The notes under the pieces were generated by a model. The model saw only the letters and a list, made by a program, of their open reading frames with translations. It was not told where the DNA came from and did not search any database. Made by a program: the position numbers and the translations under genes. A DNA stretch of 22,443 bases from Sphingobium sp. (GTDB lineage: Bacteria > Pseudomonadota > Alphaproteobacteria > Sphingomonadales > Sphingomonadaceae), in NCBI GenBank assembly GCA_030148625.1, contig JASBTC010000421.1:1-22443 (forward strand), read 5' to 3'. The first letter of the stretch is position 1. Each line of letters opens with the position of its first letter. This document shows positions 564-22,443 of this stretch, in pieces.

Positions 564-3017
<2,454 letters not shown>

Positions 3018-5585: not shown

Positions 5586-5770
5586 CTTCCCCCTCCAGAT
5601 GAGCGACCGATGTCCTGCGGGCCGGTTATTCGATACGACGTCTTACGGATCCGGCGATATCCCATGCCCCCGCATGTTGGTCCTTTGACGAGCCTAGCTG
5701 CCTGCGGGCGAAGGGCAATCATTGATGCATCCAGAGTGAGCGGTACTCTTCAAACTGGGCGGGCTGGGTA

Positions 5771-6367
5771 ATGCCCGAGAGGAACGCAATCTTCCGCAAG
5801 ACCGCGCGGAATTTCAACTCGGTGATGGCGATCGCGACCGTCCAGTCGTCCGACGCGAAGAAGGTGATCACCGTGCGCGGCACCGCGTTCGAGAAGGCCG
5901 CCAAGGACGGCGGCTCGGCTTCGGTCGAGGCAGTCTCGGGGAAGGGCGATGCGGGTCTGTCGAGCTTCTTCGGCGCCGAGATCGCCAAGAGCGAGCGTCC
6001 CGAGCTGACCAGCGCGAAGATCATCGTCTCGGGCGGCCGCGCGCTACAGAACAGCGAGAACTTCCACACGATCATCGAGCCCCTGGCCGACAAGCTGGGC
6101 GCGGGCGTCGGCGCCAGCCGCGCGGCCGTCGATGCGGGCTATGTGCCCAACGACTATCAGGTCGGCCAGACCGGCAAGATCGTCGCGCCGGAAGTCTATA
6201 TCGCGATCGGCATTTCGGGTGCGATCCAGCACCTTGCCGGCATGAAAGACTCCAAGACGATCATCGCGATCAACAAGGACGAAGACGCCCCCATCTTCCA
6301 GGTGGCGGACATCGGCCTGGTCGGCGACCTGTTCAAGATCGTGCCGGAACTGACCGGCAAGCTGTAG
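5771..6367 (+). pseudogene. etfA: 5'-truncated electron transfer flavoprotein alpha subunit (FAD domain only)
   Basis: Intact EtfA is about 310 residues and carries electrons from acyl-CoA dehydrogenases to the quinone pool as a dimer with EtfB. Here only the C-terminal part is present. Family similarity starts at [12 protein letters not shown] (about base 5828) and runs cleanly through [43 protein letters not shown] and [10 protein letters not shown] to the normal end [11 protein letters not shown], so the FAD-binding domain is complete. The N-terminal domain that contacts EtfB is absent. The first 18 residues of the open frame (from 5771) do not look like EtfA and have no clear ribosome site. 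No etfB is adjacent. It is probably a fragment cut by recombination; the working copy should be elsewhere. The 185 bases before it (5586-5770) hold no gene I can support. Confidence 0.8.
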
Positions 6368-6387
6368 TTTGGCCGCTTTCTGTTGGG

Positions 6388-6415
6388 CGCGCTGCTTCAA
6401 TGATGCCGCAGCGTG
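6388..6415. terminator. Hairpin between convergent genes
   Basis: An 8-bp stem with one wobble pair joins 6388-6395 and 6408-6415 (core CGCTGC/GCAGCG) around a 12-base loop. It lies between the etfA fragment on the plus strand and the SDR gene on the minus strand. There is no T run on either side, so a terminator role is tentative. Confidence 0.3.
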
Positions 6416-6424
6416 ATGAACGTC

Positions 6425-7189
6425 CTATTCAGCCGTCCACCCGCCATCAACAACCAGCGAGCTTCCCGTCACCAATGCGGACGCGTCGCTTGCCAGGTAG
6501 AGCACGGCGCCCATCAGGTCCTCGGGCCGGCCGATCCGGCCCATTTTGATTTTCTGCAGGATACTTGCCCTGAAACCGCTGTCCGCCAGGAACGGCCGGG
6601 TCATCGGCGTTTCGATGAAGGTGGGGGCGATCGTGTTGGATCGGATGCCGTGCGGGGCGAGATCGAGCGCGAAGGCTTTGCTCATTCCCTCGATTGCCCA
6701 TTTCGACGCGCAGTAGAGCGAGCGGTTGGGCGCGCCGACATGGCCCATCTGGCTGCCGATATGGATAAGGCTGCCCGCGATCCCAGCATCGATCATCCGC
6801 CGCGCACAGGCCTGGCTGACGAAGAACACCGATTTCACGTTGAGATCCAGCACCGCGTCGTAATCGGCCTCGCCGACATCGACCATTGGCATCGGCCGGT
6901 TCGTCCCGGCATTGTTGACCAGGATGTCATGAGCTTGGTGACTGGCGAAGAAGGCACCGACGGCGACCAGATCCGACACGTCGAGCACCACTGCTTCGGC
7001 TTGGCCGCCGGCATCCCGGATCGCCTGCGCCACGCCTTCGATCTCGCCCGCTGAGCGTGCCGCCAGCGTGACATGCGCGCCGGCCTCGGCAAGGGCTGCA
7101 GCAAGCGCGACGCCGATGCCGCGCCCGGCGCCGGTCACTATCGCCCGGCGGCCGTCCAGGCGAAAGCTCGGCGTTTTCGGCAGTGCCAT
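6425..7189 (-). CDS. Short-chain dehydrogenase/reductase (SDR)
   Basis: A classical SDR of 254 residues that oxidises an alcohol or reduces a ketone with a nicotinamide cofactor. Visible are the cofactor motif TGAGRGIG (19-26), NNAG (92-95), Asn117 (LNVKS), Ser146 (IGSQMG) and the YCASK pair Tyr159/Lys163, so the catalytic tetrad is complete. The second beta strand ends AARS rather than in Asp, which leans towards NADP(H). The ATG at 7189 is one base from the stop of the upstream HisD-like gene, so translation is coupled; the frame is open further upstream but there it lies inside that gene. It is the last gene of the five-gene operon. Probable job: oxidation of a secondary alcohol in the same pathway as the HisD-like enzyme. 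The substrate is unknown. Confidence 0.9.
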   Translation of the reverse strand: MALPKTPSFRLDGRRAIVTGAGRGIGVALAAALAEAGAHVTLAARSAGEIEGVAQAIRDAGGQAEAVVLDVSDLVAVGAFFASHQAHDILVNNAGTNRPMPMVDVGEADYDAVLDLNVKSVFFVSQACARRMIDAGIAGSLIHIGSQMGHVGAPNRSLYCASKWAIEGMSKAFALDLAPHGIRSNTIAPTFIETPMTRPFLADSGFRASILQKIKMGRIGRPEDLMGAVLYLASDASALVTGSSLVVDGGWTAE

Positions 7190-7190
7190 C

Positions 7191-8513
7191 TCAGGCGGCG
7201 ACCGGCTCGGCACGCCCGGCATAGGGCACGTCACGATGGCCATGGCGGCGCACCCGGATATTGGCCTGCTCGCCATGGCCCGCAAAGCCCTCCAGCGCGC
7301 ACAGCCGGCTGCAATATTCACCGATCATCGCGGAGGCCTCGTCCGTCAGCACCCGCTGATAGGTGCAGGTCTTGATGAACTTGCCGACCCACAGGCCACC
7401 GGTATAGCGCGCCGCCTTTTTCGTCGGGAGCGTGTGATTGGTGCCGATCACCTTGTCCCCGAAACTGACATTGGTGCGCGCGCCCAGGAACAGTGCGCCG
7501 TAATTGGTCATATTCTCGAGGAAATAATCCGGCTTCGCGGTCATCACCTGGACATGCTCGGATGCGATCTCATCGGCGATGCGCACCATCTCGGCATCGT
7601 CCTCGGCCAGGATGACCTCGCCGAAATCTTCCCAGGCCTGGCGGGCGACGCCAGCGGTGGGCAGCACAAGCAGCAGGCGTTCGATCCACGCCAGCGTGTC
7701 ACGCGCCAACGACTCCGACGTGGTCAGCAGGATCGCCGGGCTGTCCGGGCCATGCTCGGCCTGGCCGAGCAGGTCGGTCGCCGCCAGTTCGCCGTCGCAT
7801 CCCGCGTCGTCGGCGATCACCAGCGTCTCTGTGGGGCCGGCGAACAAATCAATGCCCACCCGGCCGTAAAGCTGGCGCTTGGCTTCGGCGACATAGGCGT
7901 TGCCGGGACCGACCAGGATATCGACCGGCGCGATCGATTGCGTGCCCAGCCCCATCGCCGCCACCGCCTGGATGCCGCCCAGGCAATAGATCTCGTCGGC
8001 GCCGGCCATGGCCTGCGCCGCGACGATGGCGGGGGCGGGCTTGCCGCCAAAAGGCGGCGCGCAGGTCACCACGCGCGGCACGCCCGCAACCTTGGCAGTG
8101 ATGACCGACATATGCGCGGAGGCGAGCAGCGGATATTTGCCACCCGGCACATAGCAGCCCGCGGCATTGAGCGGCAGGTTGCGATGGCCGAGCACCACGC
8201 CAGGCAGCGTCTCCACCTCCACATCCCGCATGCTTTCCCGCTGGATGTGGGCGAAGTTGCGCACCTGCGCTTGTGCGAATTCGATGTCCTTCAGATCCTG
8301 GGGAGAAAGCGTGTCGATACACGCCTGAATCTCGGCCTGGCTCAGCTGATAATCGTCGCGATCCCAGCCATCGAAGCGGATCGACAAGTCACGCACCGCA
8401 TCATCGCCGCGCGCCTCGATCCCGGCCAGGATCTCCTCCACCGTGTCGCGCACCTGGCGGCTGGTTTCCGCCTTCGCTTCGGCGCTCGCGCCGCGTTTGA
8501 TCCAAATTGCCAT
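7191..8513 (-). CDS. Histidinol-dehydrogenase-family enzyme of the HpsN (sulfopropanediol dehydrogenase) type
   Basis: The family uses Zn2+ and NAD+ to oxidise a primary alcohol through the aldehyde to a carboxylate. All catalytic positions of HisD are kept: Gln251 and His254 (QAEHG), Glu319/His320 (SEHVQ), Asp353 (FGDK) and His413 ([13 protein letters not shown]). It is not the biosynthetic HisD, because no his genes are nearby and the segment [20 protein letters not shown] with FIKTCTYQ is what I know from HpsN-like proteins, which oxidise 2,3-dihydroxypropane-1-sulfonate to sulfolactate. The 440-residue length fits. GAGG stands five bases before the ATG at 8513. It lies between an MFS carrier and an SDR, as in hps loci, but no sulfolactate-cleaving gene is visible here and hydantoinase genes are next door, so another hydroxymethyl substrate is equally possible. 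I therefore give no gene symbol. Confidence 0.85.
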
Positions 8514-8555
8514 AGGTCCTCGCTGATCTCGAAAAAACGGGAAAGAAAAAGGTTG

Positions 8556-10100
8556 TCAGGCCTTCATCCGCCGCCATCCCCAGACCAGGCAGATGACGGC
8601 GGGGATGATGGCCAGTTGCGACAGGAGCAGTGCCTGCTGCACCGATTGCTCCGCGCCCACGCCCCAGACGACCAGTTGGTCACTGAGCGCGCCGACGAAG
8701 AATGGGGCCATGGCGGTGCCCAGGAACACCTGGGTGACGATATAGACGGCCGAAGCGGTCGCCCGGATATTGGGCGGCACCTGGCTGCTGACATTCGCCG
8801 CCGCCGGGGCCAGCCACATCGCGCTGAAAAAGTTGAACGGCACCGTCCATGCATAGGCGGCGGCGGTGGAGCCGCTCAGTAGGCAGGCGATGAGCGCGGC
8901 GGACCCACACGTGATCGCCGCCGCCGAAAAGACCAGCCTGACCCGCTCGCCATGACGCAGAATCAGCCGATCGGTGAGCAGCGCGCCCAGCGTGATGCCG
9001 CTGAACCCGCCCAGCGCATAAGAGAGGCCAAGCATCAGCCCGACATCGGCGGGTGCCGCCCCCAATGTGCGCTGGAAATAGACCGCCAGCCACGCCAGCG
9101 GGCCGATTGTCAGGAAGCAGCAGCCGGCAAAGCCGCCAAAGCCGAGCAGCAGCGATCGGTTACCGAAGATCGCCCTGAACCCGTCGGGATCGACCGCGCG
9201 GAATTTCTGCGTCCAAGTGCAGACCGCGTAGACGCCGAACGCCAGCACGCCCCATTGCAGGTGATCGCCGGTCAGCCACCCGACCAGAGCGCCAACGAGC
9301 GCGGCGGCCAGGGCGATGGCGAAATTGACAAGGAGCGCCCGCCGGCCCGCCACGCGGTAGAGTATCAGTGCCCCGGTGGTCGGCAGCATCGTGAGCGTTT
9401 CGATCGCGATGGTCCGCATCGGCCGGCGATCCGCCACGATGGCTTGCCCGTCCAGCGCGCCCCGGACGGGCTCGCGAAGGGCCGCGACGAACAGGGCGAG
9501 CAGCAGCCCGGGGCAGCCGACGATCACGAACGCCGCCTGCCACGCCTTCAGCTGCAGCGGCGCCTGGGCGGGATCGGGATAGGCCGCAGTCCAGGCGGAA
9601 AGGACCCAGCCGCCCAAAGTGAGGCCCAGGCCCGCGCCGATGAATAGCCCGCTGGTGTAGATGGCAATGGCCGTGGTGCGCTGATGCTTCGGGAAATAGT
9701 CGCACAGCAGCGAATAGACCGCTGGCGAGGCGCTGGCCTCACCAACCCCCACGCCCATGCGACACAACGCCAGGAAGCCGAAGCTGCGCGCCGCGCCGGA
9801 AAGCGCGGTCATCACGCTCCAGGCGGCCAGTCCGATGCTGACCAGCCGGGTTCGGTTCACAATGTCTGCCGCTTTGCCCAGCGGGATGCCGAACACCGCG
9901 TAGAATACCGCGAACGAGGTTCCCAGCAGGAAGCCGATCTCGGAATCCGAGATGCCGAGATCATGCTTGATGCTTTCGGCCAGGATCGCGAGGATCTGCC
10001 GATCCAGCAGGTTGAAGACATAGACCAGCATCAGGATGAACAGCACATAGGCCTTGTAAGCGCCGCTGGCAGGCCCCGGCTGGTCAAGTTCGGTCGTCAA
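8556..10100 (-). CDS. MFS transporter, Spinster-like
   Basis: An inner-membrane carrier of the major facilitator superfamily, about 12 helices in 514 residues. The first half shows YVFNLLDRQILAILAESI, then GIPLGKAADIVNRTR in the loop 2-3 signature and the GVGVGEASASPAVYSLLCDYF motif seen in Spinster-type carriers. The start is a TTG at 10100: no ATG exists until helix 1, upstream codons stay open to the previous stop but offer no better start, and GGAG lies eight bases before TTG. It is the third gene of the operon, between the TonB receptor (57-base gap with a strong hairpin) and the HisD-like enzyme (42-base gap). Its job is most likely import of the cluster substrate from the periplasm. 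A related carrier lies at 20503-21903. Confidence 0.88.
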   Translation of the reverse strand: MTTELDQPGPASGAYKAYVLFILMLVYVFNLLDRQILAILAESIKHDLGISDSEIGFLLGTSFAVFYAVFGIPLGKAADIVNRTRLVSIGLAAWSVMTALSGAARSFGFLALCRMGVGVGEASASPAVYSLLCDYFPKHQRTTAIAIYTSGLFIGAGLGLTLGGWVLSAWTAAYPDPAQAPLQLKAWQAAFVIVGCPGLLLALFVAALREPVRGALDGQAIVADRRPMRTIAIETLTMLPTTGALILYRVAGRRALLVNFAIALAAALVGALVGWLTGDHLQWGVLAFGVYAVCTWTQKFRAVDPDGFRAIFGNRSLLLGFGGFAGCCFLTIGPLAWLAVYFQRTLGAAPADVGLMLGLSYALGGFSGITLGALLTDRLILRHGERVRLVFSAAAITCGSAALIACLLSGSTAAAYAWTVPFNFFSAMWLAPAAANVSSQVPPNIRATASAVYIVTQVFLGTAMAPFFVGALSDQLVVWGVGAEQSVQQALLLSQLAIIPAVICLVWGWRRMKA

Positions 10101-10118
10101 ATCACGCGCTCCAAACCA

Positions 10119-10151
10119 GGCGGGTGGCCGCCGTGCGACCGGCCACCCGCC
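10119..10151 (-). terminator. Strong intercistronic hairpin between TonB receptor and MFS genes
   Basis: GGCGGGTGGCC (10119-10129) pairs perfectly over 11 bp with GGCCACCCGCC (10141-10151) around an 11-base loop. It lies in the 57-base gap seven bases beyond the receptor stop. There is no T run after it on the minus strand, so it more likely tapers expression or protects the receptor mRNA end than fully terminates. Confidence 0.5.
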
Positions 10152-10157
10152 AATCTG

Positions 10158-12371
10158 TCAGAATTGGAAACCGAATGTCACGCCGATGGTCCGGGGCGCA
10201 CCGAGATAGGCCGCCCGGAACGTGCCGATATCGGTACCCGACGAATAGAAGACCTTGTTCGTCAGGTTTTTGCCGTACAGTGAGATGCGGTATTTCTTGT
10301 CGGCAGTGGTGAAGCCCAGATTGGCGCTCAACAGGCCGTAAGGCGCGAAGAAGAAGGTGTTCGTGTCGTTGCCGGCCCGTTCGGCAGTGTGATCGAAGGC
10401 GATCTGGGCATTGATGCTGCCCGCCGATCCAATCTCCGTTTCGTAGGCCGCCGCGATCGAATAGACCCATTTGGGCACGCGGGTGAGCTTCAGGTTACGC
10501 GCCAGCGCCGGGTCGGGAATGCCGTCCCCGGTCAGGTCCAGGCCGTTATATTCGCCGTACTTCGCATCAGTATAGGCCAGGCTGCCGCTCAGCGACAGGC
10601 CGTCGACCGGCACCGCCACCAGATCCGCCTCCACGCCCTGGATGCGCGCGCTGGCGGCATTGATCGTGCGCTGCCGCGCCTGATCGTCCAGCACCTGGCG
10701 TTGCAGGTTGCGGAAGTCGTTGCGGTAGAGTGACAGGTTGGCGCGGACACGCCGGTCGAGCCACTCGCTCTTGATGCCCAGTTCATAGGCGTCGACATTC
10801 TCGGGATCATAAGGGCCCGCCGGGCCGATCGAGTTGCGCAGGTTGTAGCCGCCGGAGCGGAAGCCGCGCGTATAGGAGGCATAGAGCGTCAGATCGTCGG
10901 ACGGCTGAAATTTCAGCGCAGCCTTGGGCGTGAAATCCCGCCAGCTCGTGCTGTCGTCTGTGCCGAAATTGCAGACCGTGACGCTGGTATTGCACTGGCC
11001 GAAATTGGCGACACGGGCATGCTTGCGCTCGATCGTGTAGCGCCCGCCGAGCGTGAGGGTGAAGCGATCGATGAAGCGCCAGTCGGCCTGGGCGAAGACG
11101 CCGCCGGCTATATGGTTCAGCATGCCCCGGCCGCTTGGCGTGCTGCGGGACGTGTTGCTGGTGATGACGCGCGCTTCCTTATAGTCGATGGTCTGGTGGA
11201 AGATGTTGGCGCCCACCGTCAGATCGATGCGCGAGCCGATTTCACCGGCATAGACGATCTCGCCGACCAGCTGCTCCTGCCGCAGTCCCGCGGGGTCGAC
11301 GAAGTGGAACAGCGGGGCGGCGGTGCCGTCCAGCTCGGCCTGATTGTCCACCTTCAGCTTGCGATAACCGGCATTGGCGGTGATCTTGCCGGCGCCCACA
11401 TCGAACACCGTTTCACCCGTCACCTGCCGCCACTGGGTTTCGGTATGGGTGTAGAAATCGGTGACTAGATCGAACTTGCCGGTCGGCACGGGCGGGGCGA
11501 TGTTGGCGGCCGGCGCCTTGATCAGCAGGTTCTTGATCGGCGTGCCGCGATCGGTTTCCTTGCCGACCTCGCCGATCAGCGTGAAGGTGACGACGTCGCT
11601 CGGCTTCCATTCGAGCACCGGGCGGACGATCAGGCTCTCCATTGCGGCGATGCGGTTGCGGGGATTGACCGCGTTAGAAAACAGGCCGTCGCGATCGCGG
11701 TAGAGGATCGCGATCTTGCCGTTCAGCGAACCCTGAACGATCGGCGCCTCGATCGAGATCTTGGCCGATTTGTCGTCGAAGGACGCATAGCCCAGCTCGC
11801 CGCGTACCTGGAATTCGCCCGATGGCCGCCGCGTACGCACCAGCACCGCGCCGCCCGTGACGTTGCGGCCGAACAGTGTGCCTTGCGGGCCGCGCAGGAT
11901 CTCGACCGACTCCAGATCGAACAGATCGGTGAGCGCACCGATGTTCACGCCCTGATAGATGCCGTCGACGAAGACGCCCACGGTCGGGTCGTCGGACGGG
12001 TTGGTCGTATTGATGCCGATCCCGCGGATGTAGAAATTGGCCGAGGCGGGGAAGGTGCCGTTCGTATCGAGCTGCACGCCCGGTGAACGGCGGCCCAACT
12101 CGACCAGATTGACGATATGGTTGGATTCGATCTGCGCACCGGTGAAGGCGGAGACCGAAACGGCGACATCCTGTAGCGCTTCAGCCCTGCTCTTGCGCGT
12201 GCCGGTGACGACGATCTCGTCAAGTTCGCCGCTTCGCGCCGAAGTTTCCGATGCCGCCGCGTCCTGCGCCCGTGCGGGCTGTGCCAGCAGCATCGGCGCC
12301 AGCGCCACGCTTGCCGCCAATGCGGTCCGGATCAGGTTCGCGCGATAATGCCCCATGTCATTTGTCATCAT
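10158..12371 (-). CDS. TonB-dependent outer-membrane receptor
   Basis: A 737-residue outer-membrane active transporter that takes up a ligand using TonB-ExbBD energy. The N-terminus has a signal peptide with likely cleavage after ARA (33-35). The TonB box lies at DEIVVTG (51-57). The plug domain runs to about 180 and includes NFYIRGIG, VFVDGIYQG and VEILRGPQGTLFGRNVTGGAV. The rest is the 22-strand barrel (for example YTRGFRSGGYN, AYELGIKSEW), closing with a terminal Phe in GVTFGFQF. GAAGGGG stands before the ATG at 12371; a second ATG follows at once. It is second in the operon after the racemase-like gene, and the decamer CATGATTCAT stands about 50 bases before it. Such receptors next to catabolic genes are the usual sphingomonad solution for nutrient uptake. 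The ligand is unknown, though presumably it is the cluster substrate. Confidence 0.95.
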   Translation of the reverse strand: MMTNDMGHYRANLIRTALAASVALAPMLLAQPARAQDAAASETSARSGELDEIVVTGTRKSRAEALQDVAVSVSAFTGAQIESNHIVNLVELGRRSPGVQLDTNGTFPASANFYIRGIGINTTNPSDDPTVGVFVDGIYQGVNIGALTDLFDLESVEILRGPQGTLFGRNVTGGAVLVRTRRPSGEFQVRGELGYASFDDKSAKISIEAPIVQGSLNGKIAILYRDRDGLFSNAVNPRNRIAAMESLIVRPVLEWKPSDVVTFTLIGEVGKETDRGTPIKNLLIKAPAANIAPPVPTGKFDLVTDFYTHTETQWRQVTGETVFDVGAGKITANAGYRKLKVDNQAELDGTAAPLFHFVDPAGLRQEQLVGEIVYAGEIGSRIDLTVGANIFHQTIDYKEARVITSNTSRSTPSGRGMLNHIAGGVFAQADWRFIDRFTLTLGGRYTIERKHARVANFGQCNTSVTVCNFGTDDSTSWRDFTPKAALKFQPSDDLTLYASYTRGFRSGGYNLRNSIGPAGPYDPENVDAYELGIKSEWLDRRVRANLSLYRNDFRNLQRQVLDDQARQRTINAASARIQGVEADLVAVPVDGLSLSGSLAYTDAKYGEYNGLDLTGDGIPDPALARNLKLTRVPKWVYSIAAAYETEIGSAGSINAQIAFDHTAERAGNDTNTFFFAPYGLLSANLGFTTADKKYRISLYGKNLTNKVFYSSGTDIGTFRAAYLGAPRTIGVTFGFQF

Positions 12372-12422
12372 AACCCCTTCCCTTGGTCTGTCATTGTGAT
12401 GTTGATGATTTTGAACGATGCC

Positions 12423-13562
12423 TCATGATTCATGATTCCGGCCGAAAACGCCTCGCGTGATCGCTCCGGCCAACCGGAAATGCAGTTCGGTCGCGGCGAT
12501 TCCCATGGCATCGGCCGCCTCGTGCAGGCCGATGGTCTCGCCCCGCTGCGATCCGATCACCGTCACTTCATCGCCGATCACGGGTGCGTCGATGCCGGTG
12601 AGGTCAACGATCGAGTGGAACAGGGTGCGCGCGATCACGGGCACGCGGCGACCACGCACCAGCACGTTGCCGAGCGCGGGGCCGGTGGACAATCCGTCAT
12701 TCCATCCCAGCGGGAATACGCCGGTCGCGCCGTCCGCCGGCAGCATGACGCCCGATCCATACCCTACCGACAGGGTCTGCGCCTCGGCGATCCGGTTGAT
12801 CTGGATGATCGGGCTGGTGACGCCGCGCAGCACCGGTGCGAAGTCTGGTGCCGCCGATACCGGCAACATGCCGTAGAGCAGGCTGCCGGGATGGGCGGCG
12901 GAATAGGGCAGGCGGGGGCGCCAAACGAGGCCATGGCTGGCGGCGGCCATCAGCACCTGCGCGTCGCCGAACGCGGCGCGCAGTTTCGCGCCGAAGCCGT
13001 CGAAACGCTGCAGCCCCTCATCGAACAGCTGCAGGGCGCGGCTGCCGAAATGGGTATAGCCTCCCAGGCACCGCGGCTGGGCGCGCTGCGCCTCGCGCGC
13101 CAACAGGCTATCGAAGGCGGGATGATCCAGGCCGAACCGGCCGAAGCCGCAATCGAATTCGAACATGAAGCGCGCCGCGTCCAGCCCGTCCAGCGCTTCA
13201 TAGGCCGCCACACTGTTCACCGTCACGATCACGCCCCGGCACGCGATCTCCGCGAGGAGAGCGGGCGGGCAGGCGGTGAATAGCAGGATCGGATGGGCAG
13301 GGGCGGCGGCTTTAGCGCGCAGCGCTTCCCCGATCGTGCCGACGCAGAAACCGTCGACGCCCGCGCCAAGGCCCAGGCGCATGGCGCATTCGATCCCCAG
13401 GCCGTAGCCGTCGGCTTTCACGACTTGGTAGAGCGCAGCCCCCGGTGGCATGAGCGTGCGGGCGCGGGCGACATTACCGGCAAAGGCGCGCGCATCGATC
13501 GCGATGACGTTGCCGCGGTCGTCAGCGCATTCGTCCTCTCGCGATTGGGGCAACATATGCAC
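12423..13562 (-). CDS. Alanine-racemase-fold PLP enzyme, divergent
   Basis: A fold-type III PLP protein of 379 residues. The PLP lysine is Lys49 in QVVKADGYGLG (Alr: VVKANAYGHG), and the barrel shows FDCGFGRFGLD, YTHFGSR and HPGSLLYG. Tyr268 in SVGYGSG matches the Alr catalytic Tyr. Other hallmarks differ: the Arg of RxGIxLYG that contacts the PLP nitrogen is His224, the RxCMDQ box reads ARTLFHS (311-317), and GYADGYPR reads GWNDGLS. So this is probably not a housekeeping alanine racemase but a racemase, epimerase or related PLP enzyme for another amino acid. The start is ambiguous: GTG at 13562 lies five bases after GGAGG, while ATG at 13556 lies eleven bases after it. It is first in the minus-strand operon, divergent from hyuA, which suits a role on the amino-acid product of the hydantoinase. 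Confidence 0.85.
   Translation of the reverse strand: MHMLPQSREDECADDRGNVIAIDARAFAGNVARARTLMPPGAALYQVVKADGYGLGIECAMRLGLGAGVDGFCVGTIGEALRAKAAAPAHPILLFTACPPALLAEIACRGVIVTVNSVAAYEALDGLDAARFMFEFDCGFGRFGLDHPAFDSLLAREAQRAQPRCLGGYTHFGSRALQLFDEGLQRFDGFGAKLRAAFGDAQVLMAAASHGLVWRPRLPYSAAHPGSLLYGMLPVSAAPDFAPVLRGVTSPIIQINRIAEAQTLSVGYGSGVMLPADGATGVFPLGWNDGLSTGPALGNVLVRGRRVPVIARTLFHSIVDLTGIDAPVIGDEVTVIGSQRGETIGLHEAADAMGIAATELHFRLAGAITRGVFGRNHES
12424..12433. promoter_or_regulatory. CATGATTCAT decamer before the TonB receptor gene
   Basis: This decamer, with the inner palindrome ATGAtTCAT, sits at the very end of the racemase-like gene, about 50 bases before the receptor start. The same ten bases occur at 13746-13755 before hyuA. 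A shared regulator site is possible, but one match of ten bases in the window is modest evidence. Confidence 0.35.
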
Positions 13563-13794
13563 CAGATCCTCCCATGTTTGCTATGAGTGATGACTCACAA
13601 CTCACGTCGATTTGTCATACGTGAGCGGGCTGCGCAACTCATTTCTGGAATCGACGCGAATCTGGCATTACGTGGCCGTGTCGGACAATATCCGCTAAAA
13701 TCCGCTTGCGCCTCGATCTGATTTCTGCGACTCGAATGCGTGAGCCATGATTCATAGTTCATGACAATTCGTGCAAATCATTTCGGGAATGGCA
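13563..13794. promoter_or_regulatory. Divergent control region with three inverted repeats
   Basis: The region separates the minus-strand operon from hyuA and contains no gene. Three inverted repeats are visible: TGAGT-4-ACTCA (13584-13597), CTCACGT-11-ACGTGAG (13601-13625) and CATGA-8-TCATG (13746-13763). They share TGA/TCA half-site character. Two flank the racemase side and one the hyuA side, so one or two regulators could control both directions; the TetR protein encoded after hyuB is the obvious candidate. I could not place promoter boxes with confidence; TAAAAT at 13696-13701 is a possible -10 for hyuA. Confidence 0.55.
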
Positions 13795-15900
13795 ATGACG
13801 CAGCAACGAAGCTATCGGGTGGGTGCGGATATCGGGGGGACGTTCACCGATATCGTGATCATGTCGTCAACGGGCGAGATCTTCAAACGCAAGCAATCCT
13901 CCACGCCGGATGATTATTCGCGCGGGATCGTGATCGGCCTGGGTGAACTGATGCAGGCAGAAGGCATCCCGGCCGACGCGATCGTCGAGCTCGTCCACGC
14001 GACGACAGTGGCAACCAATACCGTGCTGGAAGGCAAGGGCGCGCGCACCGCATTGATCACCACGCGGGGGTTTCGCGACGTGCTGGAGATCGGCCGCGTG
14101 CGCGTGCCGCGGCTGTACGACCTGGATTATGAGAAGCCCAAGCCGCTGGCGCTGCGCCGGCACCGCTATGAGGTGGACGAGCGGGTGCTGGCCGATGGCA
14201 GCATCCTGACCCCGCTGGACAGTGGCGCGCTAAGCGCCATCGCCGACGACCTCCTGGCCGAGGACGTGGAGGCGGTGGCGATCTGCCTGCTCAACAGCTA
14301 TGCCAATCCGGTTCATGAACAGGCGATCCGCGATGCGCTGGAAGCGCTGCTGCCGCCCGACATCTTCGTCACCTGCTCGTGCGACGTGCTGCCGGAGATC
14401 CGGGAGTATGAACGCACCAGCACCACCGTGGTGAATGCCTATCTGGGGCCGATCGTCCGCAAATATCTCGATGCCCTGTCGGGGCGGCTGCGCGGTATCG
14501 GCGTTTCGTGCCCGATCCGCATCATGAACAGCGCGGGCGGGCTGATGAGCATCGAGGCCGCCTCGCGCAAGCCGGCCTATATCATCGAATCCGGACCCGC
14601 GGCGGGCGTGATCGCCGGGGCCTATATGGCGAACCTGGCGGGTTATCCCGACGTGATCACCGTCGACATGGGAGGGACGACTGCGAAGGCCGCGCTGATC
14701 GAGGCGGGTGAGCCCGCGCGCACCACCGAATATGAGGTGGGCGCCGGCATCAACGTTTCCAGCAAGCTGGTGAAGGGGGGCGGCCATTCGGTGAAGCTGC
14801 CCTTTATCGACGTGTCCGAGATTGGCGCGGGCGGCGGCAGCCTGATCGGGTTTGACGGCGGCGGGCTGCTCACGGTGGGCCCGGAAAGCGCGGGATCGGT
14901 GCCGGGGCCGGTCTGCTACGACAATGGCAATGACACCCCGACGTTGACCGACGCCTTCATTACCCTGGGCTATCTGAACCAGGATGCGATCGCGGGCGGC
15001 GCCGTGCGGCTGAATGCGGCCAGGGCGCGCGCGGCGCTGGACGCGGTCGTCGCCCGGCCGATGGGGCTGAGCACCGAGGATGCCGGGTTGGGCGTGCAGG
15101 CGATTGCCACCGCCACCATGTCACGGGCGGTGAAGGCGGTCTCCACCTATTGCGGGCGCGATCCGCGCGATTTCGCGCTGTTCGCCTTTGGCGGCAACGG
15201 CCCGATGATCGCCAACCAGATCGCCCGCACGATGGGCATCCGGACCGTGATCATCCCGCCCAGCCCCGGCGTGTTCAGCGCGATGGGATTATTGTTCTCG
15301 GCGATCGAGCATGAATTCACCGCCACCGATTTCCGCCCGCTGGTGGCCGATGCGGGCGAAAGCTTCGCGGCCGGATTCCGCCGGCTGCAGGGCCGCGCGC
15401 ACGATGTGATGGCCGTGGAGGGCTATGCGGACGAGGCGCTGGAGAGCGAATGGTACGCGGATCTGCGCTATCAGGGGCAGGCCTATGAACTGACCACCCC
15501 GGTGCCCGCAGGCGAGGACGGCGCTACGCTGCTCGCCACCGCGCTCGACAATTTCCATGCCGAGCATCACCGCACCTATGGCCATGCCAATCCCGCCAAT
15601 CCGGTTGAGCTGGTCAGCTATCGCGTGAAGATGCGCGTGGTGCGCGATCAGTCCGGAGACATGGATCATTGGACGGTGGCGGCCAGCGATGCCGCGCACG
15701 GCGCGCGGCGCGCGGTCTTCCCAGGCGAGCAGCCGGATGAGATCCCGGTCTTCAACCGCGGCCATCTGGTGGCGCAGGCGCGGCCGGGGCCCTTCATCGT
15801 AGAGGAATATGATTCCACCTTTGTCGTCCCGCCCGGTTGCACCGCGCAGGTTGACAGCTTCGGCAACATCGTCGTGACCTTGGGGAGTGAAATCCGATGA
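13795..15900 (+). CDS. hyuA: Hydantoinase/oxoprolinase subunit A (HyuA family)
   Basis: The ATP-dependent subunit of N-methylhydantoinase, 5-oxoprolinase, caprolactamase and acetophenone-carboxylase-type enzymes. The 701 residues show the N-terminal domain with VGADIGGTFTD (9-19), ATTVATNTVLEGKGARTALITTRGF (split: about 69-93), the ASKHA core with ESGPAAGV (265-272) and DMGGTTAKAALI (291-302), and a C-terminal domain. The start was set at the ATG at 13795 because GGGA lies six bases before it; ATG at 13789 and GTG at 13771 are in frame without a ribosome site. It overlaps hyuB by ATGA, so the subunits are co-translated. The family is clear, the substrate is not: hydantoins, lactams and carboxylation substrates are all possible. 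It is divergent from the racemase/TonB operon. Confidence 0.93.
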   Translation: MTQQRSYRVGADIGGTFTDIVIMSSTGEIFKRKQSSTPDDYSRGIVIGLGELMQAEGIPADAIVELVHATTVATNTVLEGKGARTALITTRGFRDVLEIGRVRVPRLYDLDYEKPKPLALRRHRYEVDERVLADGSILTPLDSGALSAIADDLLAEDVEAVAICLLNSYANPVHEQAIRDALEALLPPDIFVTCSCDVLPEIREYERTSTTVVNAYLGPIVRKYLDALSGRLRGIGVSCPIRIMNSAGGLMSIEAASRKPAYIIESGPAAGVIAGAYMANLAGYPDVITVDMGGTTAKAALIEAGEPARTTEYEVGAGINVSSKLVKGGGHSVKLPFIDVSEIGAGGGSLIGFDGGGLLTVGPESAGSVPGPVCYDNGNDTPTLTDAFITLGYLNQDAIAGGAVRLNAARARAALDAVVARPMGLSTEDAGLGVQAIATATMSRAVKAVSTYCGRDPRDFALFAFGGNGPMIANQIARTMGIRTVIIPPSPGVFSAMGLLFSAIEHEFTATDFRPLVADAGESFAAGFRRLQGRAHDVMAVEGYADEALESEWYADLRYQGQAYELTTPVPAGEDGATLLATALDNFHAEHHRTYGHANPANPVELVSYRVKMRVVRDQSGDMDHWTVAASDAAHGARRAVFPGEQPDEIPVFNRGHLVAQARPGPFIVEEYDSTFVVPPGCTAQVDSFGNIVVTLGSEIR

Positions 15901-17693
15901 TCGCATCCGATCCTATCACGCTGGAAATCGTGAAGAACGCGCTCAGTTCGCTGGCGGACGAGATGGCGCTGGTGATCCTGCGCAGCGCCTATTCGCCGAT
16001 CGTGCGCGATTCCATGGATTATTCGACCGCGATCTGCGACCGCAATGGCGAGATCGTCGCGCAGGGGCTGACCAACCCGATCCATCTGGGCGCGTTCCCC
16101 GATGTGATGCGCATCCTTGTCGAGCAGCATCTTTCGGGCATGAAGCCCGGCGACGCCTTCCTGGTGAACGATCCCTATGGCGGTGGCGGCATGCATCTGC
16201 CGGACGTGTTCCTGATCAAGCCGCTGTTCATCGACGGCGCGCTGGAGGGATTTGCCGGAACGCTGGTGCATCATTCCGATATCGGCGGCCTCGCGCCCGG
16301 CAGCATGGGCCTGCAGGCGACCGAGATTTTCCAGGAAGGGCTGCGCATCCCGATCGTGAAGCTGTTCGAAGCGGGCGCGATCAACGAGACCACGATCGCG
16401 TTCCTGAAGGCCAATTCGCGCACGCCGATCGAGCTGATGGGCGATCTTTCCGCGCAGATTGCCTCGGTTGATGCCTGCGAGCGCGGCTATGTGCAAATCG
16501 TGCGCAAATATGGCAGCGCCACGTTCCGGGGCTTCCTGTGCGAACTGCACGATTATGCCGAACGGCTGATGCGCCAGCAGATCGGCGCGATGCCAGACGG
16601 GCGCTACGACTATGTCGATTATGTCGACGGGCTGGGCGCCGATCCCCAGCCGATCCGCTTCGAAGTGTGCATCACGATCGCCGGCGACAGCGTGAGCGTG
16701 GACTGGACGGGCACCAGCCCTCAGGTGCAGGGCGCGATCAACGGCCCGATGCCGACCACCACATCGATGACCTATGTCGCGCTGCGCGCCGCGATCCATG
16801 CCGATATCCCGAACTTCGCCGGCTATATGCGCCCGGTGCGGGTGAGCGCTCCGCTCGGCACGATCGTGAACCCCACGGCACCGGCCGCGTGCGCCGCGCG
16901 CGGCGTGATCGCCTATCGTATGCTCGACACGCTGTTCGGCGCGCTCAACAAGGTGCCGGGCAGCCGCATCCCCGCGCTGGGCGAGGGCGGTCCTTCGGTC
17001 GTGTCGTTCAGCGGGTGGGACCAGGGCAGGGCCTGGATCATCACCGACGGCATATTGGGTAGCTGGGGTGGCCGATCCGGCAAAGATGGGGTGGACGGAA
17101 TATCCAGCCCGGGCACGAACCTGTCCAACCAGCCGATCGAACTGATCGAGGCGCGCATGCCGTTGCGCGTGCTGAGCTATGCCTTTGCTCAGGACAGCGG
17201 CGGTGCCGGCAAATATCGCGGCGGCCTGGCCATGATCAGATCCTATGAGATGCTGGCGGAGGAAGGGCTGGTGCAGCTCCGTTCGGACCGGCGCGACCAT
17301 CTGCCGGCGGCCTCCGGCGGGGGGCTGCCGGGAAGTCCGTCCTACACCTGGCTGACGGACGGGGGCGAGCCGCGCATGCTGCCGGTGATGCCGATGGGGC
17401 CGATCACGATCTCGGCGGGGGCCCGGCTGGTTCACCTGGCGGCGGGCGGCGCGGGCCTGGGCAACCCCTTCGATCGCGATCCGCAGGCGGTGCTCGACGA
17501 TGTGCTGGATGGGCGGATCAGCGCGGAGATGGCGCGCGATGCCTATGGCGTGGTGCTGGACGGTGCGGGACGATTGGTCGACGTGCCCGCAACGGCGGCG
17601 CTGCGCACGGCGCCGGGGACGGTGGAGCAACTGACCGCGCTGCAACAGGCGATCTTCGCGCGCACCAACAGCGCGGCGCGGCTGCTGGGCTGA
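15897..17693 (+). CDS. hyuB: Hydantoinase/oxoprolinase subunit B (HyuB family)
   Basis: The partner of HyuA that performs the ring-opening half of the reaction in this two-subunit family. The 598 residues have the family's typical length and run from LEIVKNALSSLADEM through RDSMDYSTAICD, HLGAFPDVM, NDPYGGGGMHLPDVF (split over about 91-105), HHSDIGGLAPGS, then VDWTGTSPQVQGAINGP, to the closing GGAGLGNPFDRDP. No gap or stop is visible. The ATG lies inside the hyuA stop (ATGA) with GGGGAG ten bases before it. It is followed by a hairpin terminator and then the TetR gene. Without a third carboxylase-type gene, an ATP-dependent cyclic amidase is more likely than an acetophenone carboxylase. Confidence 0.93.
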   Translation: MIASDPITLEIVKNALSSLADEMALVILRSAYSPIVRDSMDYSTAICDRNGEIVAQGLTNPIHLGAFPDVMRILVEQHLSGMKPGDAFLVNDPYGGGGMHLPDVFLIKPLFIDGALEGFAGTLVHHSDIGGLAPGSMGLQATEIFQEGLRIPIVKLFEAGAINETTIAFLKANSRTPIELMGDLSAQIASVDACERGYVQIVRKYGSATFRGFLCELHDYAERLMRQQIGAMPDGRYDYVDYVDGLGADPQPIRFEVCITIAGDSVSVDWTGTSPQVQGAINGPMPTTTSMTYVALRAAIHADIPNFAGYMRPVRVSAPLGTIVNPTAPAACAARGVIAYRMLDTLFGALNKVPGSRIPALGEGGPSVVSFSGWDQGRAWIITDGILGSWGGRSGKDGVDGISSPGTNLSNQPIELIEARMPLRVLSYAFAQDSGGAGKYRGGLAMIRSYEMLAEEGLVQLRSDRRDHLPAASGGGLPGSPSYTWLTDGGEPRMLPVMPMGPITISAGARLVHLAAGGAGLGNPFDRDPQAVLDDVLDGRISAEMARDAYGVVLDGAGRLVDVPATAALRTAPGTVEQLTALQQAIFARTNSAARLLG

Positions 17694-17702
17694 GCGGAAG
17701 TG

Positions 17703-17733
17703 GGGCGGCGGTCCCGGTTGCGAGCCGCCGCCC
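17703..17733 (+). terminator. Terminator-like hairpin after hyuAB
   Basis: GGGCGGCGG (17703-17711) pairs perfectly over 9 bp with CCGCCGCCC (17725-17733), with a 13-base loop, ten bases after the hyuB stop. It is followed by TTCGCATT, a weak T tract. It would separate or reduce expression of the tetR gene. Confidence 0.6.
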
Positions 17734-17739
17734 TTCGCA

Positions 17740-17754
17740 TTGACATCTCATGAG
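17740..17754. promoter_or_regulatory. TTGACA box with CTCATGAG palindrome before tetR
   Basis: Directly after the terminator hairpin, TTGACA (17740-17745) matches the -35 consensus and is followed by the perfect palindrome CTCATGAG (17747-17754). Its CTCA/TGAG half-sites resemble those in the divergent control region. No good -10 box is seen at the right distance. An autoregulatory operator is possible. Confidence 0.3.
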
Positions 17755-17775
17755 CCGCCGTTCACGACGCGTCGC

Positions 17776-18372
17776 ATGACGTCCAAAAAGCCCTTCACCG
17801 TTGCTGAGCATCAGTCGTTCAACACGCTGATGATGGCCGCCTGCCAGGTGATCGGCCGGCACGGCTACAAGGGCGCCTCGGTCGCCCGGATCGCCGAAGA
17901 GGCCGGGATCTCGCAGGGCCATTGCTATAAATTCTTCAAGTCCAGGGACGATATCCTGGATCATGTGATCATCTGGATCATCGAGCAGTTCGAGAACTGG
18001 TCGCGCAAGCCATCGCGCGAGAAGGTGGGCTATCTGGAAAGCGAACACCTCGCGCTCGAGCAGTTCTTCTCATATCAGAAGAAATATCCCTTCTTCTTCC
18101 GCATCATGCACGAGGCTGAGGTGGAGACCCCGGTGGCGTGGAAGACGTTCGCGGATCGCCGCCACGATCAATACGTCGTCTCACTGCAGGCAGCGATCGA
18201 TAGTGGTGAGATTCGCGGCTATAGCGCAGGCCAAGTTGACGATCTGGCGCGATTCCTCTCTGCCGTCCGCAGGGCGATCATCTTCGGCGCCTATGAGGGG
18301 GCGATCACCAACAAGGCTCAGGTGATTGAAAATTACGACCTTTTCCTTCACCAAGCGCTTGGTCGCGCTTAA
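17776..18372 (+). CDS. TetR/AcrR-family transcriptional regulator
   Basis: A one-component repressor or activator of 198 residues. The N-terminal helix-turn-helix lies at about 20-65, with GRHGYKGASVARIAEEAGISQGHCYKFFKSRDDIL in the family pattern (written across about residues 28-62). The C-terminal part (70-198) is the helical ligand-binding and dimer domain, including FFSYQKKYPFFFRIMHEAE and a loop-helix end FLHQALGRA. The ATG at 17776 was chosen although no ribosome site precedes it; a TTG at 17740 would add 12 residues of poor family fit. It follows hyuAB after a hairpin and most likely controls the divergent operons, with a cluster metabolite as ligand. That link is inferred from position only. 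Confidence 0.88.
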   Translation: MTSKKPFTVAEHQSFNTLMMAACQVIGRHGYKGASVARIAEEAGISQGHCYKFFKSRDDILDHVIIWIIEQFENWSRKPSREKVGYLESEHLALEQFFSYQKKYPFFFRIMHEAEVETPVAWKTFADRRHDQYVVSLQAAIDSGEIRGYSAGQVDDLARFLSAVRRAIIFGAYEGAITNKAQVIENYDLFLHQALGRA

Positions 18373-18852
18373 TTCCGTCACTCGCATGTGAGAAAGATGG
18401 CGCGTAGCGGAGCATGTCCTCTGAAAGCCGGCTGTGTGCTCTTGGCGGGCTTCAGACAGGGCATCATCCCCTGACATCCGGCGACTCCGTGGCCGGGAAG
18501 AGCGACGATCTCGGCATCGATCGGTCGGCCCCGTTCGATACTGTGGTGAATGAATTCGCGCGTCGAAGCGATGCGTTACCTCACCAATGCGGCTTGGGCT
18601 GGCTCGATAGAGTTGGCGACGGCGTGCCGTGCGAAAGCATTTGTTGAATCGGTTCGATGCCCATTGCCTTGCGATGGTTCGGCATGGGTAGCGTGCTCTC
18701 CCGCCCCGCGCGACCGATGATCCGTCTTGCGGGAATCATTTGGCGGGGCGCCGCTGACGCAGGGACGTTCCTTGCGTGGCAACGACTGTCGCATGGCTGG
18801 CTATACGGCTGGAGGCGAGTTTCATCTCCGGCCGCGGCGCGGTCACTGCATG
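18373..18852. other. 480-base interval with no supported gene
   Basis: This separates the two catabolic clusters: tetR on the plus strand ends at its left and the CoA-ligase gene on the minus strand ends at its right. Several short open frames exist on both strands (for example 18414-18647 plus and a frame from about 18549 to 18719 plus), but none has a ribosome site or a recognisable motif. It may be decayed coding sequence or a fusion joint. I see no RNA gene, and no clear terminator for the CoA-ligase gene. Confidence 0.5.
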
Positions 18853-20457
18853 TCAACTCGCGATCATGTCCCGAAGTATGCTCTTGGCGATCTTGCCGCC
18901 AGAATTGATCGGCAGTTGGTCGAGTATCACCAGTCGCTCGGGGAAATATTCCGGCGAAACGCCGTTGCCGCGGAGGAAGGCGGCCAACGTCGCCACATCG
19001 GGCGCGGCAAGGCCGGCATTGAGGCTGGCGAACAGGCAGATCTTTTCGCCGAAGATCGGATCGGGCATGGCCACCGCCGCTGCTTCGCGAATTGCCGGAT
19101 GCCCTATCGCCGCAGCCTCTACGCCGACGGCGCTGATATTCTTGCCGCCGCGGATGATGAAATCGCCGACGCGGCCGATCACGCGGAGATAGCCGTCATC
19201 ATCGATCGAGACAATGTCCTCCATGCGCATCGATCCGTCGGGCATGAACAGACCGGCATTGGCCTCGGGATTGTTGAAATAGCCGAGGCCCATGAAGGGG
19301 CCATTGCAGAGTGGCTGTCCGTCACCGGGTGGATGACGGTCATTTCCCGAGGCATCGAGCAGCCGGACGCGCATTTCGGGGATGATCCGTCCGGCACTGT
19401 TCAGGCGGCGCTCGGTCGGATCGGAGAGCGTCGTATGACTGACTGCCCCGGCCTCGTTGGAGCCGTAAAATTGCAGCACCTTCGCACCGGTCAGGACTTC
19501 GAGCCGCTCCACCGCGTGGCGCGGAACCGCTTCGCCGCCGGTATAGACGATGCGCAACGAGGTCAGATCGCTGTCCGCAAGGTCGGGGCTGCTCAGCATC
19601 ATCTGAATTTGCGTGCTGACCAGACAGAGCATTGACACGCGATGATGCGCAATCGCGGCGAACAGCGCCGAAGTCGTGAAGCGGGGCATCAATATGGTGG
19701 GCGCACCCAGCATCGCGGGAATGAAGTGACCGGACCACAGCCCGAAGCCGACCGAGGCCGGCACCGCGCGGAGGAACCTGTCGTTCTCGTTCGGTGCGCA
19801 GCCTTTCTGCACGAGCGCCGCCCAGGCGAGCCAGCGGCTCTGCTGATGGGCGACCAGCTTCGGCATGCCGGTGGTGCCCGAGGTGGAGTTGAGCAGGAAG
19901 AGCGCGTCGGGAGAACAGCGCCGTTCCTGCAGCACGCGCAAGGTTTCCAGCGGAATCGGGTCGAACCCCGTGGGCACGCCGTCGACACTGATCCGATCGA
20001 GCGGGCGCGGCGTCTCCTCAATTATGACATGGTGCTTGAGCGTCCGGCCGGATGCTCGCAGCCGGGCATAGATTGCGCGCATGTCGAGTGCACCTTGAGT
20101 GGCGGCGCTGATAAGGGCCGTTGCCCCCGCCATCGCAACGAGGTGGAGGATCTCTTTCTCGCCGGCGCGGGGTGATAGCGCGGTCGCTACAAGGCCGGCT
20201 TTCTCGCAGGCCACGAACGCGATGTGGGTCTCGATATCGTCGGGAAGCAGGATCGCGATGCGTTCGCCGGCCATGAAGCCCAGGTCCAGCAGTAATGCCG
20301 CTAGCGCATCGGACCGCTCATGATAGTCGCGCCAGTTCAACCTGCGTTGGCCGGCGATGAAAGCGATGTGGTCGGGCCGGGAAGCGGCATGGGTGGCGAT
20401 GATCGCGGCGAGAGTTTCGCCGCCGGTGGGATTGGCGGCCTTTTCGAGCGAAGACAT
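18853..20457 (-). CDS. AMP-forming acyl-CoA synthetase/ligase
   Basis: An ANL-superfamily enzyme that adenylates a carboxylic acid and forms its CoA thioester in the cytoplasm. The 534 residues contain the phosphate loop STSGTTGMPK (191-200), the YGSNEAG motif (331-337), MEDIVSIDDDGYLRVIGR (412-429, Asp414 in the usual tGD position, here MED), the hinge-side GDFIIRGGKNIS, and the catalytic Lys522 in INSGGKIAKS. The substrate class cannot be fixed by eye; its neighbour, a tannase/feruloyl-esterase-family hydrolase, suggests an aromatic acid such as a hydroxycinnamate or benzoate. The ATG at 20457 has no strong ribosome site; the gene follows the MFS gene after 45 bases and is the last of the operon. 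Confidence 0.92.
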   Translation of the reverse strand: MSSLEKAANPTGGETLAAIIATHAASRPDHIAFIAGQRRLNWRDYHERSDALAALLLDLGFMAGERIAILLPDDIETHIAFVACEKAGLVATALSPRAGEKEILHLVAMAGATALISAATQGALDMRAIYARLRASGRTLKHHVIIEETPRPLDRISVDGVPTGFDPIPLETLRVLQERRCSPDALFLLNSTSGTTGMPKLVAHQQSRWLAWAALVQKGCAPNENDRFLRAVPASVGFGLWSGHFIPAMLGAPTILMPRFTTSALFAAIAHHRVSMLCLVSTQIQMMLSSPDLADSDLTSLRIVYTGGEAVPRHAVERLEVLTGAKVLQFYGSNEAGAVSHTTLSDPTERRLNSAGRIIPEMRVRLLDASGNDRHPPGDGQPLCNGPFMGLGYFNNPEANAGLFMPDGSMRMEDIVSIDDDGYLRVIGRVGDFIIRGGKNISAVGVEAAAIGHPAIREAAAVAMPDPIFGEKICLFASLNAGLAAPDVATLAAFLRGNGVSPEYFPERLVILDQLPINSGGKIAKSILRDMIAS

Positions 20458-20502
20458 TGTGAGTGCGACAGGCCTTTTCTGGCTGGAGAAAGTGAGGAAA
20501 AC

Positions 20503-21903: not shown

Positions 21904-22443
21904 TGTGGAGCCGGTCCGAAATTGGCCGCGTCATTCGGATCGCCAGCACCTTTGTAGCGGGCGCGCAACGGATAAGGATAGACCGGGCGGGTGAAGGCGA
22001 CGTTGCGATGATCGAGCGGGAAACGCGGTGCGCTATACCCTGCGGCCTGTCGGGCTTCGTCGGTCAGACGGGTGCTGAGTACCATGTCCGGGGCACGGTC
22101 ATGCTCCACCCAGTCATCGATATACGCCAAATAGTCGACGACATCGGCGCCGGCACCGCCGGAACAGTGGTTGACGCCAGGCTGGAGGAAGAGACGGAAG
22201 AAATTCTGTGTTTCGGAGCGACTTCCCATCAGCCGTTCCACAGTGTTGTAATATTCTACGAAGTTGGTGCCGGTCTGATAGGCGTCCGACCAACCGTGCC
22301 ACAGGATAAGCTTGCCGCCATTCGCCTTGAAGCGGCGCAAATCGGGATCGATCGCGGTGAACTGCGCTTCCCAGCTGCCGAGCCGGCGATAGGCACGCGA
22401 GAAATCAAACTGCGACGGTGTCCAGGACTGGCCCGGGGGTGGG
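21900..22443 (-). CDS. Tannase/feruloyl-esterase-family hydrolase, C-terminal part (cut by window)
   Basis: The last 180 residues of an alpha/beta hydrolase that splits ester bonds of plant phenolics or similar aromatic esters. The frame stays open to the window end, so the N-terminal part with the catalytic Ser lies outside. Two of the three catalytic elements are visible: Asp in LILWHGWSD (residue about 53 of the fragment) and His-Cys in LQPGVNHCSGG (92-93), the HC half of the CS-D-HC signature in which a disulfide joins the Ser and His neighbours. The end VYPYPLRARYKGAGDPNDAANF is typical for the family. Its stop overlaps the MFS start. Members are usually exported; the signal peptide cannot be checked here. 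Esterase, carrier and CoA ligase together fit a route from ester to acyl-CoA. Confidence 0.9.
   Translation of the reverse strand, partial: PPPGQSWTPSQFDFSRAYRRLGSWEAQFTAIDPDLRRFKANGGKLILWHGWSDAYQTGTNFVEYYNTVERLMGSRSETQNFFRLFLQPGVNHCSGGAGADVVDYLAYIDDWVEHDRAPDMVLSTRLTDEARQAAGYSAPRFPLDHRNVAFTRPVYPYPLRARYKGAGDPNDAANFGPAPQ

Follow-up and report, generated by a model that had tools for sequence, protein, structure and literature searches.

We analyzed a 22,443-nucleotide stretch of DNA from Sphingobium sp. (contig JASBTC010000421.1, positions 1 to 22,443; hereafter, the window), which carries an eight-gene cassette pairing HyuA- and HyuB-type subunits of the ATP-dependent lactamase/hydantoinase family with a pyridoxal 5'-phosphate (PLP) enzyme of the alanine racemase (Alr) fold. 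Open reading frames (ORFs) and Pfam families confirmed the gene content, order and strands of the original prediction, made from the sequence without database searches, and the ORF coordinates gave the same minus-strand gaps of 51, 57, 42 and 1 bases. The five minus-strand genes, SDR-HisD-MFS-TonB receptor-Alr, diverge from a plus-strand hyuA-hyuB-tetR arm, in which the HyuA and HyuB reading frames overlap by 4 bases:

6425..7189, minus strand: SDR family oxidoreductase (PF13561/PF00106; Tyr-x-x-x-Lys read in the translation)
7191..8513, minus strand: HisD-fold alcohol dehydrogenase with the motif GKYPL (PF00815, 441 bits)
8556..10100, minus strand: MFS transporter (PF07690)
10158..12371, minus strand: TonB-dependent outer-membrane receptor (PF00593, PF07715)
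12423..13562, minus strand: Alr-fold PLP enzyme (PF01168, PF00842)
13771..15900, plus strand: HyuA-type subunit of the ATP-dependent lactamase/hydantoinase family (PF01968, PF05378, PF19278)
15897..17693, plus strand: HyuB-type metal subunit (PF02538, 519 bits)
17740..18372, plus strand: TetR-family regulator (PF00440; 88% identical to its counterpart at the same place in Sphingomonas colocasiae locus L005)

The mechanical ORF of the SDR begins further upstream, at 7321, and the HyuA start at 13771 is provisional, with further ATG codons internal to the ORF.

The eight-gene block is one conserved unit. By BLASTN, the whole window gave one match to 39.8 kb of S. colocasiae, spanning window positions 6423-18349 (11,942 columns, 86.1%), and nothing beyond it; because this single match covers the cassette without further matches, the cassette boundaries exceed chance. 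All eight genes are present in L005, in the same order and with 83-94% protein identity, so that the two arms, whose failure ever to co-occur elsewhere had been named as grounds for abandoning the original prediction, do stand together in a second organism. In a profile search of genome contigs using 25 aligned Alr relatives, L005 (Alr 83%) was the one close locus, the remaining 79 kept loci lying at 21-40% identity over the best segment. A smaller set, Alr-TonB receptor-MFS together with HyuAB, recurs in genome G221, where the TonB receptor (48% identity) adjoins Alr; the HisD-SDR pair was not found in the 19.9 kb covered at that locus. Co-occurrence in S. colocasiae and partial recurrence in G221 thus support the proposal that import and cyclic-amide opening belong to one unit.

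In the alr-hyuA intergenic region, RTGAGNNATGAYTCAYNNYTCAYG occurs twice without mismatch, once close to the start of each gene:

13583..13606, plus strand: operator-like site, alr side (counterpart at L005 9950-9973, with one mismatch)
13740..13763, plus strand: operator-like site, hyuA side (exact at L005 9794-9817)

The search pattern was written after the alignment had been viewed, and its chance expectation of zero is descriptive and not an independent test. Judging by this duplication, TetR probably controls both arms through two like sites. A promoter scan returned 2 sigma-70-like sites against 2.6 expected by shuffling; there is no excess, and no promoter is claimed.

HyuA and HyuB belong to the ATP-dependent lactamase family by Pfam scores above cut-off and by nucleotide and metal motifs, with DIGGTFTD, DMGGT and GSVPGP in the HyuA translation and HLPD and HHSD in that of HyuB. 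The HyuA/HyuB families include ATP-dependent hydantoinases and lactamases, as described in the accessible part of PMC8453981. The best NCBIfam model is caprolactamase, and the best-matching solved chains are named N-methylhydantoinase and 5-oxoprolinase. Caprolactamase CapAB itself was considered and rejected: NF050156 and NF050157 score 502.6 and 258.6 bits, against a cut-off of 1000.

The Alr-fold enzyme retains most of the racemase active site, with a change at the PLP ring nitrogen. Its predicted structure (pLDDT 90.2) finds alanine racemases as best PDB matches, and residues Lys49, Arg142, His171 and Tyr268 are kept, Lys49 and Tyr268 aligning with the catalytic Lys39 and Tyr265. The position of Arg219, which contacts the pyridine N1 of PLP in alanine racemase (PMC3485190, in excerpt), is occupied by His224. 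Among the 34 closest homologues (41-98% identity), the catalytic lysine is found in 33, with P0028 a fragment, and the equivalents of Arg136, His166 and Tyr265 in all 34; at the Arg219 position stand Asp in 27 and His in 7. Nine hyuAB-linked copies carry Asp (5), His (2) or Asn (2) and in no case Arg, and all keep the lysine, with the catalytic Tyr in eight and Phe in L108. Arg is present in 10 of 10 more distant genomic Alr proteins sampled from the 79 loci. The canonical CMD motif reads TL(F/L/Q)H or similar in this group, its Asp being His in the window and His, Gln, Asn or Glu in relatives, a placement that hinges on a one-residue gap; the role of that Asp is treated in PMC10288493, which serves here for that role and not as substrate evidence.

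According to the available portion of PMC5025676, the arginine keeps the PLP nitrogen unprotonated and destabilizes the quinonoid, and an Arg209-to-Glu substitution is predicted as probably needed for an Alr scaffold with native-level β-lyase activity. The N1 replacement in the Alr enzymes of the HyuAB clade is of the type that published work predicts an efficient β-lyase on the Alr scaffold to need. Because the N1-contact arginine is replaced, by His in the window and by Asp or Asn in relatives, altered chemistry is predicted, and stronger quinonoid stabilization than in Alr would be expected. Two observations count against giving this too much weight. The window has His at N1 and not an acid, which makes a weaker argument than Asp, and loss of the arginine is not unique to the group, since six of the next 11 homologues (P0035-P0045) also lack it, and those six lack the Tyr too. 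The six, P0035-P0037, P0039, P0042 and P0045, seemingly represent other uncharacterized Alr-fold families. Of the relatives that stand apart from hyuAB, L089 has Asn at the N1 position and no Tyr, and L110 (genome G740) has Cys.

The fold named in the original prediction therefore stands, while a plain alanine racemase was rejected because the N1 Arg is absent and the score of 124.5 bits falls below the cut-off of 168 for the alr model TIGR00492. A role as sole or housekeeping copy is also unlikely: genomes G001 and G221 hold further Alr-family genes with the Arg, and the window-type enzyme is thus not the only copy there. A search of viral contigs with the Alr alignment found no relative.

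The combination of HyuAB with a fold-III PLP enzyme of the Alr type is the deeper core of the cassette and occurs in several bacterial groups. The Alr query matched 3 of 397 genomes in the family of G001 (E<=1e-40), 1 of 396 in the order (G001 again), 4 of 385 in the class (1e-32; G001 included) and 4 of 72,556 plasmid records (1e-30), for a total of 10 distinct loci. HyuA and HyuB are in the cluster at eight of these; they directly adjoin Alr in seven (L005, L092, L093, L094, L095, L108 and L109) and lie about 5 kb away in L088, separated from it by genes for a TonB receptor, an MFS protein and LacI. No HyuA or HyuB match (E<=1e-20) was found in the 79 more distant Alr loci, 20 of which are stretches shorter than 15 kb. 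Conversely, 20 HyuA loci from 18 genomes (HyuA 37-51%), of which L145 and L147 are cut by contig ends, yielded neither an Alr nor a DSD1 relative at E<=1e-8 with half of the query covered. HyuA at large is carried at E<=1e-100 by at least 129 of 397 family genomes; among the matches listed, only those in G001 (93%), G221 (58%) and G012 (51%) exceed 50% identity. On plasmids, the four Alr-bearing records are the top four of 683 that match HyuA, followed by Bosea NBC_00550 (52.8%) and Marinibacterium (50.3%). These counts are tempered by two Alr relatives without hyuAB alongside, L089 (G336) and L110, and by relatedness: L092 nearly duplicates L094, and L093 is closely related to L095 (82% in HyuA), so that the eight hyuAB-linked loci amount to fewer independent cases.

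In a FastTree phylogeny of 38 HyuA sequences, the window belongs to an 11-member clade with a local support of 0.97, in which the cluster partner is Alr-like in eight, the window included, DSD1/BhcC-like in two and DadA-like in one. The two DSD1 proteins (L096 and L105) match only one NCBIfam model, 3-hydroxy-D-aspartate aldolase BhcC, at 294.0 and 289.1 bits versus 690, and L097 encodes the DadA-like protein (below cut-off) and a Rid-family protein. All three families can act on D-amino acids. Their common denominator, judging from family names, would be a free, probably D-configured α-amino acid with a β substituent. A PALP protein, a relative of SDS-type serine dehydratases, accompanies Alr in L088, L092 and L094; those of L088 and L092 are 50% identical, the nearest relatives of the L092 protein are L-serine dehydratases of the mammalian type, and L088 carries in addition a gene of the methylmalonate-semialdehyde-dehydrogenase type that scores above the family cut-off. 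The correspondence between clade and partner is imperfect. L108 has Alr, yet its HyuA falls outside the clade of 11, and no Alr or DSD1 relative was detected in L106, L140 and L107, whose HyuA lies just outside it. The remaining genes also vary by lineage (TRAP, peptide ABC or MFS uptake; LacI or TetR; PALP or HisD-SDR), and the substrates may therefore differ too.

With moderate confidence, we read the whole as a catabolic cassette that combines cyclic-amide import, HyuAB-mediated opening, unusual fold-III PLP chemistry, alcohol oxidation and TetR control. The TonB receptor and MFS transporter would take up a cyclic amide, such as a lactam or cyclic hydroxamate; both score under their NCBIfam cut-offs (for the MFS protein, the best model is TIGR00893, at 116.6 bits versus 395), which assigns them no substrate. 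HyuAB would use ATP to open the ring, releasing a free α-amino acid for which we infer, from the partner families, a D-configuration. The Alr-fold enzyme may then act at Cα of the freed amino acid, either racemizing an unusual substrate or serving as a lyase/eliminase. In this lineage, HisD and SDR would oxidize a side-chain alcohol, and TetR would regulate both arms. On this scheme, the substrate may be a hydroxylated cyclic amide, as originally proposed, and the two arms may be co-induced.

Far more tentatively, and as a possibility we regard as doubtful, the Alr enzymes of the HyuAB clade could constitute a natural fold-III lyase/eliminase family that arose via replacement of the N1 Arg by Asp, Asn or His. 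Together with HyuAB, they would make up a route for breaking down a serine-like cyclic amide or hydroxamate, in which opening to a β-substituted D-amino acid is followed by β-elimination, or by racemization and then the serine-dehydratase-like PALP. On structural grounds alone, D-cycloserine is a candidate substrate.

Two other explanations start from the same HyuAB assignment, and we consider each unlikely. In a hydantoin pathway, which the inclusion of ATP-dependent hydantoinases in the family would allow, HyuAB would convert 5-substituted hydantoins to N-carbamoyl amino acids, a carbamoylase encoded elsewhere in the genome would release the amino acid, and the Alr-fold protein would racemize it. 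An isochorismatase-family gene is present at both Bosea Alr loci and at the Paraburkholderia locus; these proteins, however, match only the YecD model (46.2 and 44.2 versus 195 bits) and by eye seem to lack the usual Cys. No N-carbamoyl amino acid hydrolase family was found among the scanned window ORFs, though such a gene could lie elsewhere, and the enzymes clustered with HyuAB need a free amino group. Alternatively, and with a similarly low probability, the cassette could serve the catabolism of 5-oxoproline (D or L) or of an α-amino-lactam (ornithine or lysine lactam), with Alr as a glutamate, ornithine or lysine racemase. The caprolactamase, 5-oxoprolinase and N-methylhydantoinase matches point in that direction, but the better caprolactamase score is half its cut-off, and at sister loci the serine-dehydratase-like and BhcC-like partners point to β-substituted amino acids more than to Glu, Orn or Lys.

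The proposed alcohol oxidation concerns the HisD-SDR pair. The nearest solved chain to the window HisD is 8v35, an HpsN, and the equivalents of Glu318, His319 and Asp352 align. Published motifs, as given in an excerpt of PMC11382572, distinguish HpsN (GRYA/SH) from HisD (GSAPL). The window has GKYPL, with the sulfonate-contacting His126 of HpsN replaced by Leu, and its closest HisD relatives, in L001, L002, L003, L004 and L005, share GKYPL; L001 and L002 each have a second hisD, with GRFPL. To judge from its residues, the protein looks like an active dehydrogenase that matches neither published motif; of the HpsN-like label it had been given, the overall similarity is borne out and the diagnostic residue is not. 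Catabolism of a sulfonated diol (dihydroxypropanesulfonate) by the minus-strand arm, with the hyu genes independent, which the original prediction offered as its alternative, has in its favor the HpsN relationship and an SDR adjoining HisD, as hpsO does in hps loci, but is highly improbable given the missing His126, the absence of a zinc-ADH (HpsP-type) or sulfolyase domain among the scanned window ORFs, the conservation of both arms as one unit and the duplicated site at both gene starts.

We instead see HisD-SDR as an accessory module outside the conserved core, presumably oxidizing a side-chain alcohol. It is separable because the pair also occurs without hyu genes nearby, on Novosphingobium plasmids (L001, gene content from annotation; L002, from tblastn), where an HpcH-type aldolase, an amidase and a TonB receptor surround it. 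The window SDR is 85% identical to that of S. colocasiae L005 and 78% and 75% identical to those of L001 and L002, and in Roseomonas HisD also occurs together with an SDR. L001 (6684-16091) and L002 each appear to be an unrecognized catabolic locus in its own right, with two hisD paralogues, SDR, HpcH aldolase, amidase, TonB receptor and LacI; a pantothenate role for HisD-SDR, suggested by the L001 amidase, was dropped for lack of evidence. At L110 (9453-17108), a HisD lies about 5 kb from the Alr relative and could be a histidine-pathway enzyme.

The cassette is flanked on the left by a fragment of electron transfer flavoprotein (ETF) alpha and an integrase-domain ORF and on the right by an AMP-ligase/MFS/tannase group; in S. 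colocasiae, the first gene past the end of tetR to which a family could be assigned encodes a large serine recombinase. From the conserved block and its unrelated flanks, we infer a transferred catabolic cassette. Repeats of >=16 bases at the cassette edges were absent within 6250-6450 and within 18300-18860, and those across 5600-19000 are many and unremarkable; a tRNA search of the window found none. Features of the flanks are as follows:

750-3017, plus strand: full-length catalase-peroxidase KatG (TIGR00198, 1155.6 bits versus a cut-off of 770.25)
666-2714, minus strand: ORF overlapping KatG, with no Pfam family and probably spurious
3331-4683, plus strand: Phage_integrase-domain ORF, about 1.7 kb left of the cassette
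5771-6367, plus strand: ETF alpha subunit fragment (FAD-binding part), directly at the cassette edge and the sole match in 7 of the 20 plasmid records that match the window
18853-22442, minus strand: AMP-dependent ligase, another MFS gene and the C-part of a tannase/feruloyl esterase, which form an operon of their own that may serve phenolic esters

In the literature covered, which leaves most subscription papers outside, we found no paper on an operon joining hydantoinase, histidinol dehydrogenase and alanine racemase, and none on catabolism by hydantoinase/oxoprolinase with alanine racemase, on cycloserine degradation or on a cycloserine-degrading hydantoinase cluster. HyuAB catabolic loci are already known, and this version adds an enzymologically interesting component. 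Annotated public records place "alanine racemase" beside "hydantoinase/oxoprolinase", two labels that are likely to be incorrect or incomplete. The repeated pairing of HyuAB with fold-III enzymes provides a defined set of loci for finding the substrate of an uncharacterized clade of ATP-dependent lactamases, and the change from Arg to Asp, His or Asn supplies natural test cases of a single PLP contact setting the reaction type of a fold-III enzyme.

Compared with known systems, the window Alr shares with alanine racemases Alr/DadX the fold-III PLP architecture, the catalytic Lys and Tyr and the Arg136 and His166 equivalents, and differs in the N1 Arg, the CMD Asp and its sub-cut-off TIGR00492 score. 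Caprolactamase CapAB, 5-oxoprolinase and hydantoinase HyuAB share with the window the two-subunit HyuA/HyuB build and its nucleotide and metal motifs, but, unlike these, the window HyuA sits in a clade whose members are linked for the most part to PLP enzymes of fold III. HpsN and HisD share the fold family and the Glu, His and Asp equivalents with the window dehydrogenase, whose motif differs from both. Also comparable are the hyuA-hyuB-alr loci of Bosea and Burkholderiaceae, annotated, where annotated, as hydantoinase/oxoprolinase and alanine racemase, with HyuA 55-58%, HyuB 58-60% and Alr 35-36% identical to the window proteins. Those loci use peptide-type ABC uptake and LacI, and in Bosea also carry the serine-dehydratase-like PALP, whereas the window has TonB/MFS uptake, TetR and HisD-SDR around the same core.

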